Shown here: positions 1,215 through 63,684 of the stretch, piece after piece
How positions within the stretch are numbered: the stretch's first letter is position 1
Layout of the letters: the number at the start of each line of letters is the position of its first letter
Assembly (NCBI GenBank): GCA_035471805.1
Contig: DATIPS010000040.1
Coordinates: 1-64,000, forward strand
Length of the DNA stretch: 64,000 bases
Origin: Acidimicrobiia bacterium
Lineage (GTDB): Bacteria; Actinomycetota; Acidimicrobiia; Spongiisociales; JAHEDJ01
Reading direction: 5' to 3'
The notes under the pieces: model-generated
What the model was told of the DNA's origin: nothing
What the model saw: only the letters and a program-made list of their open reading frames with translations
The model's database searches: none
Program-made: the position numbers and the translations under genes

Positions 1215-1237
1215 GCCCTTCTTCGGGGAGGAGGACC

Positions 1238-1900
1238 ATGCAAGCGCCGGATTTCGCTTTGATCGACCAGTCGGGAGCGGAGTGGGTGCTTTCCAGACAC
1301 CTCGACACCGCCCGGCTCCTGGTATTCCTCCGCGGTGATTGGTGACCCTATTGCAACGGGCAGCTGGTCAGCTTGTCCAACCGATACGGGGAAGTCATGC
1401 AAGCCGGTGGCCGCATCGCGGTGATATCCGTTGATTCACCGGGCCAGAACGCGGCCATGATCGACAAACTGCAGTTGCCGTTCCCGCTGCTCAGCGACCC
1501 GGATCGTACCGGGGCGATCGAACCGTTCGGCGTTTCGGACTCGAATGATCCTCGTGAGCTTGCTCGACCGTCGCTGTTCGTGGTGACACCGGAGTCCGAG
1601 GTCGCCTTCAGAGAGACCAGTCGTGATTTCGCCGATCGCGCTTCCGAGGATGCGGCAATCGCCGCCCTGGCAGGACTCGGTCTGCCTGCCACCGTCGCCG
1701 AAGACGTCGAACTGGGTCCGATCGAGCCCGGCCCGCGCGCGATGCCGTTGCATGCGATGGAGCCCTACTTCCGGGGAGCCAGGTTTGCCGTCACCGCGAT
1801 GAAGATGCGTCACGCCGACGTTGCGGAAGACGCCGCCGTATACATCGCCCAGATGGACCGGTACATCGAACTCGTGAAGGAACTGAGGAGCAAGACGTAG
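1238..1900 (+). CDS. Selenocysteine-containing peroxiredoxin-like protein (UxxC), in-frame TGA at 1343-1345
   Basis: AhpC/TSA-type thioredoxin-fold protein of about 220 residues. Reading from ATG 1238 (strong purine-rich Shine-Dalgarno at 1225-1234) gives MQAPDFALIDQSG, then FLRGDW, a TGA at codon 36, then PYCNGQL, and the frame stays open to 1900. The family motif here is F-Y/L-R-G-x-W-C-P-Y-C, so the TGA falls exactly on the first catalytic cysteine, giving U36-P-Y-C39. Downstream sequence (AVISVDSPGQNAAMIDKL, then FPLLSDPDRTGAIEPFGV) fits the peroxiredoxin fold. C39 is the only cysteine. A hairpin with a GGTC loop lies 20 bases after the TGA. Role inferred: Sec-dependent peroxidase or thiol-disulfide oxidoreductase. 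A standard caller would begin at the internal ATG 1373 and lose the active site. A point mutation of TGC/TGT to TGA is the alternative. Confidence 0.85.
1358..1378 (+). promoter_or_regulatory. Bacterial SECIS-like hairpin
   Basis: Directly after the in-frame TGA, GGGCA (1358-1362) pairs with TGTCC (1374-1378 with one G-T), and GCT (1363-1365) pairs with AGC (1370-1372), with a bulged T at 1373 and a GGTC tetraloop at 1366-1369. From memory, the E. coli fdhF SECIS also has a GGUC loop on a 3-bp stem above a single bulged U, about 18 bases after its UGA. Here the distance is 20 bases. The bulge is on the 3' side rather than the 5' side. Structure is by eye, not computed. Confidence 0.7.
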
Positions 1901-15073: not shown

Positions 15074-15814
15074 ATGCCTGTTAGCTACGAACGGCGAGAG
15101 CGGGTCGCGCTGATCACTCTCGAGCGGCCGGACCGACGGAACGCGGTGAACAAGGAAGCCGCCGACGGATTGCGGGAAGCCTGGCGGCTCTTCGATTCCG
15201 ACGGTGGGGCTGATGTGGCGGTCTTCAGTGGAGCCGGTGGAGTTTTTTCTGCCGGAGCGGATCTCAAGGACTTCGACCTGGTCGATCATCCGGATGGATT
15301 CCTCGGGTTCACCCGGATGGTCGTTTCGAAACCGACCATCGCGGCGGTCGAGGGGTACTGCGTCGCCGGGGGGCTCGAGATGGCTCTGTGGTGTGATCTG
15401 CGGGTGGCGGGTGACGGTGCCGTGTTCGGGTGTTTCGAGCGACGGTTCGGCGTGCCTCTGGTCGACGGGGGCACGCAGCGCCTTCCGCGACTGATCGGAA
15501 CGTCGCGCGCTCTCGACATGATCCTGACCGGCCGGTCTGTCGACGCAGCGGAAGCACATCGGATCGGACTCGCCGATCGGGTGGTTCCTGCCGGCTCGGC
15601 GGTAACGGCTGCGATCGAGATCGCCGCGGCGATTGCCTCGTTTCAGCAGGAGACCGTTCGCTCAGACCGGATGGCGCTGCTCGAGGGGCTCGGGCGACCG
15701 ATAGCTGAAGGGCTCGAGGTCGAGCGTCGCTACGGGTTGGGTGTCCTGAACGTGGCGTCCGAAGGCGCCGCCCGTTTCGCCGGTGGAGCAGGGCGGGGAG
15801 GCGCCGGAACCTGA
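15074..15814 (+). CDS. Enoyl-CoA hydratase/isomerase family protein
   Basis: 246-residue crotonase-fold protein with GAGGAGGTG Shine-Dalgarno before ATG 15074. The oxyanion-hole blocks are FSGAGGVFSAGADLKDF and AAVEGYCVAGGLEMALWCDLRVA. The usual first catalytic Glu position falls in FGCFERRFGVPLVDGGTQRL, where the Glu after CF is present. Probable role: hydration of 2-enoyl-CoA in beta-oxidation or a related acyl-CoA step; the exact substrate is unknown. The C-terminus (GGAGRGGAGT) is Gly-rich. Ends eight bases from the convergent fabH. Confidence 0.88.
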   Translation: MPVSYERRERVALITLERPDRRNAVNKEAADGLREAWRLFDSDGGADVAVFSGAGGVFSAGADLKDFDLVDHPDGFLGFTRMVVSKPTIAAVEGYCVAGGLEMALWCDLRVAGDGAVFGCFERRFGVPLVDGGTQRLPRLIGTSRALDMILTGRSVDAAEAHRIGLADRVVPAGSAVTAAIEIAAAIASFQQETVRSDRMALLEGLGRPIAEGLEVERRYGLGVLNVASEGAARFAGGAGRGGAGT

Positions 15815-61868: not shown

Positions 61869-63090
61869 CCCGGCGCGTCGCTCCCCGATCATGAACGTGA
61901 TGTGGGCACTCGCCTTCGCGGCACTGTTCTTGGTGCTGGCGATAGAGGCGTCCGACCGGCTGTTCGAGATTCTCGTCGCCGTGTTACTCCTCGCTGGAGC
62001 GTCGCAGATAGTGGTTCCGGCAACGAGTGGCAACTCCCTCTCGCTCGGCTTCGCGGTTGCGGCGGCAGTTCCCCTCGTCCTTCACGCTCCGGGTGGAGAA
62101 GTAGATCTGGTGGCATCCACATCCGTGTTCGTCGGCGGGGGACTGATCGCCTGGGTAACCGCCGTCCTCCGCGGCCAGGATGCGGTTGTTTCGCTGGCCT
62201 CTGCCATGCGCCGGGCCGTCGGTGCAGGCGTCTACGCGGTGATCGTCCGCTACGTGACGCCGCTCGCCGAAGATCTGCTCGGGGTCGATCCGGACGCGGC
62301 TCGGCTGATCGGATTCGCAGCCGGGTCGGCAGTGTGGTTCACGCTCGAGGTATTCCTATGGGCCTTCGTCACTTTCGGCCGTCGCCGCATCAGCCGGCGG
62401 TACCTCTGGTTGCTGGCCGTCAAGGACTGGATGGTGGCGTTGAGCCTGCTGGCCACCGGGGCCCTGTTCGGCTTCGTATACGGAGACATTGATCTATGGG
62501 CTGCGGTCGTCGTCGTGGGTGTTCCCTATGCCTTCGCTCACCTGGCCTTTCACCGCTACCAGGACTCTCGTGCCACCTACTGGCAGACCATTCGGGCGTT
62601 GTCGCGTATTCCCGAGGTGGCGGGTCTCTCGCCGGACGGTCACGGCGACCGAACGTCGGAAATGGCTGTGCAGGTCGGCCAGCGCCTGGGGCTTTCACCC
62701 GATGAAGTCGAAGACATTCGCTTCGCGGCGATGATGCACGACATAGGCAGAGTCACTTTGAACGAGCCGAACGTCATCAAGATGGGGTTTACCGAAGAGG
62801 ACATTGCCAGGTGGGGATCGGAAATCATCGGTGAATCGGCATACCTCGAACGAATCGCCCACCTCGTCCGGCAGCAGCATCATCCCTACCGGCGCCCGGG
62901 CGAGTACAAGGACCTCGAACTGCCGATGGCTTCCAAGGTCATCAAAGCAACCAGCGCCTACGACCACGCAACGACCGAACTCGGCTTCTCCCAGCTCGAG
63001 GCGCTCGAGGTTCTGCATCGCGGTGCCGCTTACGATTACGACCCCGACGTCGTGGAAGCTCTCCGGGAGATCGTCGACGCCGGAAGGTAG
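61855..63090 (+). CDS. Membrane HD domain protein 2, divergent paralog
   Basis: 411-residue protein, similar layout: about seven helices (residues 14-240) and a C-terminal HD domain with GHGDRTSEMAVQVGQRLGLS and FAAMMHDIGRVTLNEP. The GYP region is degenerate: HHPYRRPGEYKDLELP. GTG 61855 has GGGAG five bases upstream and overlaps the previous gene by 14 bases. The two may form a pair in which one partner has lost part of the active site. Confidence 0.87.
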   Translation: MARSDPARRSPIMNVMWALAFAALFLVLAIEASDRLFEILVAVLLLAGASQIVVPATSGNSLSLGFAVAAAVPLVLHAPGGEVDLVASTSVFVGGGLIAWVTAVLRGQDAVVSLASAMRRAVGAGVYAVIVRYVTPLAEDLLGVDPDAARLIGFAAGSAVWFTLEVFLWAFVTFGRRRISRRYLWLLAVKDWMVALSLLATGALFGFVYGDIDLWAAVVVVGVPYAFAHLAFHRYQDSRATYWQTIRALSRIPEVAGLSPDGHGDRTSEMAVQVGQRLGLSPDEVEDIRFAAMMHDIGRVTLNEPNVIKMGFTEEDIARWGSEIIGESAYLERIAHLVRQQHHPYRRPGEYKDLELPMASKVIKATSAYDHATTELGFSQLEALEVLHRGAAYDYDPDVVEALREIVDAGR

Positions 63091-63093
63091 CTT

Positions 63094-63684
63094 CTAGGTG
63101 CGGCGGGCCGAACCCGCTTCGGCCTGGGCGCCGTGCTTGAACCATCGAACCGGGCGCCGCAGTTCGTGCTCGAGGAACCGTCCAAGGCCTACGGCGAGCA
63201 GGACGTCGCCGAGCGAGATCACCTGCCCCTGGCCGATCAACCGCAGGGGAATCACATCGGCAAGGAAGGCGAGACGGGTGCTCTCGTCGAGAACCAGGTG
63301 CTTGTAGTTGCCTGTGATGTCCACCGATTCGGGGAATCCGCCGGCGACTATCGCCGCCCCTTCGAGGACCGGCATTCCGCCGTTGGCAGCAATGACCGAG
63401 AAGTTCATCAGGATGCCCAGACCGGCCAGCCACATCCCCGGCCTGTCGCGGTTGACGATAACCATCACGAGCAAGGGCACGTAGGAGAGGAGTATCAGGG
63501 TGATTCCGGTGGGTCTCGCCCAGTCGGATTCCTGTGGGAAGAAACTGGTAGCCGTTTGCATCCCGAAGCCCAATATGAGCAGCCACCACATTCTCAGCCG
63601 AACGTCCGACAGGTTGCGCAATCTGCCCCCGCGGACGACAGCGATGGAGGCGGCTAAAAAGAGCACGAGCGCCAACCAGACCAT
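63094..63684 (-). CDS. DUF5317 family membrane protein
   Basis: 196-residue membrane protein with about four to five helices. NGGMPVLEGAAIVAGGF and NYKHLVLDESTRLAFLADVIPL are the blocks I associate with DUF5317. Function unknown. TACGGT (minus strand, 63691-63696) lies six bases before ATG. Stops four bases from the convergent HD gene. Confidence 0.8.
   Translation of the reverse strand: MVWLALVLFLAASIAVVRGGRLRNLSDVRLRMWWLLILGFGMQTATSFFPQESDWARPTGITLILLSYVPLLVMVIVNRDRPGMWLAGLGILMNFSVIAANGGMPVLEGAAIVAGGFPESVDITGNYKHLVLDESTRLAFLADVIPLRLIGQGQVISLGDVLLAVGLGRFLEHELRRPVRWFKHGAQAEAGSARRT

Follow-up and report, generated by a model that had tools for sequence, protein, structure and literature searches.

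The locus described here, which lies in a stretch of 64,000 nt from an Acidimicrobiia contig (the window), raises the question of whether an in-frame TGA ends a gene or is read as selenocysteine (Sec), and of what kind of redox protein would result. The initial annotation had proposed an open frame crossing a single TGA, with both flanks belonging to one protein, and its coordinates proved exact: between the ATG at 1238 and the TAG at 1898-1900, codon 36 is the one interruption and there is no frameshift (Table 1). Read-through gives RGDW-U-PYC, with the TGA at the place of the motif's first Cys as had been suggested, and homologues in another family of the phylum, f71, have TGC there. The Shine-Dalgarno-like run expected before the start is present, and its GGGAGGA is kept in three genomes of the same genus. 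The mechanical ORF list holds 1373-1900 alone (TTG start, 175 aa), the shortened call that had been foreseen, and since this ORF starts at TTG 1373 the active site around codon 36 is lost from it. We consider it about 96% probable that the locus encodes a selenoprotein, in which SelB and tRNA-Sec would decode the UGA to yield a thioredoxin-fold UxxC product; judged from its sequence, this product is almost certainly a redox enzyme whose active site contains selenium.

Table 1. Features of the predicted selenoprotein locus (window coordinates)
Feature	Position	Strand	Remark
Predicted selenoprotein gene	1238-1900	+	220 aa; Sec encoded at codon 36
In-frame TGA read as Sec, U36 of RGDW-U-PYC (predicted)	1343-1345	+	
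Cys39 codon, putative partner (resolving) Cys of UxxC	1352-1354	+	Sole Cys codon in the gene
Shine-Dalgarno-like run GGGGAGGAGG	1225-1234	+	Precedes ATG 1238
Bacterial SECIS hairpin GGGCAGCU-GGUC-AGCUUGUCC	1358-1378	+	Apical loop GGUC at 1366-1369

The gene is present in three of the four other genomes of the genus, at 72, 73 and 90% identity, and all three have TGA at codon 36; the fourth genome, without the gene, is 56% complete. A scan of contigs returned one relative only, apparently the same contig as in one of these genomes (G001), and a tblastn search of plasmids gave matches at 26-30% only. In the class as a whole the family occurs in 41 of 395 genomes, and alignment around codon 36 showed TGA in 41 of the 41 homologues whose active-site codon is readable, a count that leaves out two further gene pieces beginning after that codon. 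Neither TGC nor TGT stands at this codon in any of them, and such uniformity is far beyond chance. The family also goes with the Sec machinery, selB being found in 39 of the 41 family-bearing genomes as opposed to 181 of the 354 others (matches above the curated cut-off; Fisher p 5e-9), and the two family-bearing genomes without selB are 75% and 84% complete. No conserved gene neighbourhood was seen, the flanking ORFs in common being mostly antisense shadows of the selenoprotein gene. Compared with the 90% relative, dS and dN are 0.40 and 0.036 downstream of the TGA, and 0.39 and 0.086 upstream of it. The sequence is therefore coding on both sides and under purifying selection, with a dN/dS of about 0.1 downstream, where a true stop would have been followed by degraded sequence. 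One genome of the genus holds another TGA-containing Prx-like gene (L029, G003:C72:14782-15045, minus strand) with the motif HFG-U-LTCRE, which probably represents a second selenoprotein family.

A SECIS-like hairpin had been noted after the TGA, and we compared it with the bacterial SECIS model, which has an apical loop of 3-9 nt with a G within its first two positions, an upper stem of 4-16 bp, a distance of 16-37 nt from the UGA and an MFE of -7.5 kcal/mol or lower (PMC13188914). All of these features are found in the present hairpin, which starts 12 nt and has its GGUC loop 20 nt after the UGA, with a stem of about 7-8 bp containing a bulge and a core MFE of -9.6 kcal/mol. In an alignment of 38 class genes, 96% of the cells are paired, a value reached by none of 500 shuffles. 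Helix covariation is limited, one of the 7 pairs having changed on both sides among compensatory types (C-G/A-U/G-U). Nowhere in the gene are synonymous sites more constrained than in the hairpin codons, 40-46 (p 1.5e-5). Core folding energies average -8.5 kcal/mol among 69 Sec genes, compared with -5.2 kcal/mol among 14 non-Sec homologues (p 2.6e-6, a generous value given that the sequences are related and not independent). Two subgroups, GDF-U-TYC and UPYCC, have a rearranged or modified upper stem.

The source genome (2.85 Mb, 70 contigs, 97% complete) was expected to carry selA, selB, selC and selD, and we recovered all of this machinery: selA (431 bits, NCBIfam cut-off 268) adjoining selB (341 bits, cut-off 242), a tRNA-Sec with UCA anticodon (75 bits), and selD (401 bits) with a Sec site of its own, GSGUACK. 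The remark that selenoproteins are uncommon in most actinobacteria does not extend to the sampled class, where SelB exceeds the curated cut-off in 220 of 395 genomes. The selD gene (L017:1441-2547, on G000:C31 at about 62469-63575) thus appears to be a selenoprotein gene too, with YSHGSG-U-ACK at the N-terminus. A search for fdh-type selenoproteins turned up a formate-dehydrogenase-alpha-like gene (L119, G000:C23:79093-80961, minus strand) with a TGA in DSCNRT-U-HAPS and a GGUC-containing stretch downstream of it. Together with the Prx-like gene, at least three Sec genes are therefore predicted in this genome. A LysR regulator (L009:508-1485) adjoins the tRNA-Sec gene; among NCBIfam models it matches the selenium-metabolism-associated LysR best, at 210 bits and below the cut-off of 250. 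Within the window a tRNA search found no tRNA genes, and a GC3-based scan for TGA read-through gave one weak further candidate, a minus-strand TGA at 15662 with coding-like GC3 on both sides, which probably lies just upstream of a gene start.

Could the TGA nevertheless be something other than a Sec codon? One in-frame stop, an assembly in many pieces and an ORF caller that finds a shortened gene are what one would expect of a sequencing error or of a decaying Prx-like gene with 1373-1900 as its remnant. Yet 69 genes sampled from the phylum have the identical TGA at the active-site codon and intact downstream frames, and the low dN/dS and the Sec machinery of the genome also speak against decay; the conservation of the TGA refutes this reading, to which we give practically no chance. 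UGA is reassigned to Trp in other bacteria, and the codon might be read as another residue through suppression (as Trp or Cys) or a change of the code across the genome. We found no support for such a reading, and TGA serves as the stop of other genes in this genome, among them one that ends at 2935 and selD, which terminates at its second TGA, while the non-Sec homologues usually have Cys, not Trp, at this position. With TGA a working stop elsewhere and tRNA-Sec, SelA, SelB and SelD all present, the code-change reading was rejected as highly improbable.

A further alternative accepts Sec and makes the protein a genuine selenocysteine peroxiredoxin (PrxU-like), which would reduce peroxides through a standard Prx active site. 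The best Pfam matches, AhpC-TSA and Redoxin, are in keeping with it, the former (PF00578) reaching 78.8 bits on the read-through product against a gathering score of 26 (E 4e-22) over residues 2-123 and so spanning the TGA, a score that equally places the protein among Prx-like thiol:disulfide oxidoreductases. The AlphaFold model (mean pLDDT 95) has ResA, Bcp/PrxQ and AhpE as its nearest solved folds in Foldseek. However, the residue aligned with U36 is the leading Cys of CPHC in a ResA variant and a Ser in Aeropyrum PrxQ, C39 aligns with the peroxidatic Cys of this PrxQ, and the nearly invariant Pro111 aligns with a Pro in ResA and an Arg in PrxQ; these PrxQ residues (Ser, Cys and Arg) are the established catalytic ones of the family. 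A peroxiredoxin proper has Thr/Ser-x-x-Cys(P) and a catalytic Arg, whereas here Sec sits at the Thr/Ser position, so that TxxC is missing, and Pro111 fills the Arg column, an alignment that points to the site of a UxxC thiol oxidoreductase and not of a peroxiredoxin. The PrxU model NF040737 scored 19.7 bits against a cut-off of 270, and known Sec-peroxiredoxins have TxxU (PMC13188914). A true peroxiredoxin is thus unlikely, and the name selenocysteine peroxiredoxin given by the initial annotation holds for the Sec and the Prx-like thioredoxin fold, although not for the peroxiredoxin active site. The most fitting name is Prx-like UxxC thiol:disulfide oxidoreductase, the catalytic step being proposed from motif and fold and a peroxidase activity being possible.

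As such an oxidoreductase, the protein would arise when SelB and Sec-tRNA(UCA), guided by the hairpin, decode the UGA as Sec, giving a 220-residue thioredoxin-fold protein of the AhpC/TSA superfamily with U36-P-Y-C39 at a helix N-terminus. The U36 selenolate may attack a disulfide or peroxide and C39 may then resolve it as a selenenylsulfide, a likely intermediate given that C39 is the only Cys of the protein, and recycling could proceed through a thioredoxin- or mycoredoxin-type reductant. U36 and C39 are invariant in the 35 aligned sequences, and so are R32, G33, D34, Y38, Q42, L43, D130, A132, R134, Y177 and R191. The protein ends in a two-helix extension (about residues 171-219) and starts with MQAPDF, with no signal or anchor segment seen.

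In the wider sample of the phylum a second group, family f71, contains genes with TGA, genes with TGC and a small number in which Ser or Asp stands at one or both of the two active-site positions. The Sec of the class genes and the TGC (Cys) of f71 homologues, aligned across the in-frame TGA, form a classical Sec/Cys pair of the kind expected for a bacterial selenoprotein. The Ser/Asp homologues L107, L110, L112 and L113 (SPFC, DPYC, CAYD and SAYD, respectively) are possibly redox-dead or altered paralogues. Another homologue, L115, reads RGDWUPDWUPDCNGQLV, a duplicated active-site unit, with a TAG in the match besides, and perhaps reflects an assembly error. On the tree the Sec/non-Sec label takes 5 changes, which give no direction as the tree is unrooted and which were counted with one UPYC gene (L086) scored as non-Sec, undercounting the Sec rows by one; the f71 non-Sec genes form mostly one group beside the Sec groups. 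We tentatively suggest, at somewhat less than even odds, an unnamed actinobacterial selenoprotein subfamily with Sec as its ancestral and effectively obligatory state, the Cys, Ser and Asp forms of f71 having come later with loss of the SECIS hairpin. Within f71 one codon is variously Sec, Cys, Ser or Asp, a natural series in which to ask what Sec adds to catalysis and to study SECIS decay following Sec loss. Standard gene callers break such genes off at the active site, so that in this little-cultured class of actinobacteria a conserved family of selenoproteins is liable to stay unannotated; the alignments and the SECIS hairpin are enough for building an annotation model.

With regard to known systems, no NCBIfam model reached its cut-off on the protein. 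The best was the SelL-related redox protein NF040769 (E 3e-11 over the thioredoxin-fold half), of which it is not a member, its score of 43.3 bits falling short of the curated cut-off of 120; SelL typically has UxxU. ResA/TlpA gives the top Foldseek match (2h1b), with the CPHC of the ResA variant on UPYC and a Pro at the same pre-strand place, but the present protein has Sec for the first Cys, additional C-terminal helices and none of the signal or anchor segment. PrxU shares the fold superfamily and the use of Sec, although its Sec is at the second (peroxidatic) position after Thr (TxxU), while here Sec comes first and Cys second. A search among the papers available found no selenoprotein work on Acidimicrobiia. 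As the initial annotation recognised, Sec in UxxC thiol oxidoreductases is established for other bacteria: Prx-like thiol:disulfide oxidoreductase selenoproteins with UxxC and PF00578, named mainly from marine metagenomes and deltaproteobacteria (PMC13188914, PMC2398784, PMC5029168), have been known since 2005-2008, and the protein is not new as a kind. Their UxxC/UxxU forms, represented by WP_010940744.1 and by 'Prx-like 1' of the GOS selenoproteome, were compared through their published description, and like the present protein they are bacterial, belong to the same Pfam superfamily, have Sec first in UxxC and have Cys homologues. The subfamily described here differs in RGD[WF]UxYC, in SRD(F/Y)ADR and in the C-terminal two-helix extension, and its genes in the sampled class are without a Cys alternative; what is new, as judged from these sequences, is thus a subfamily that has no NCBIfam model and is Sec-only in that class.
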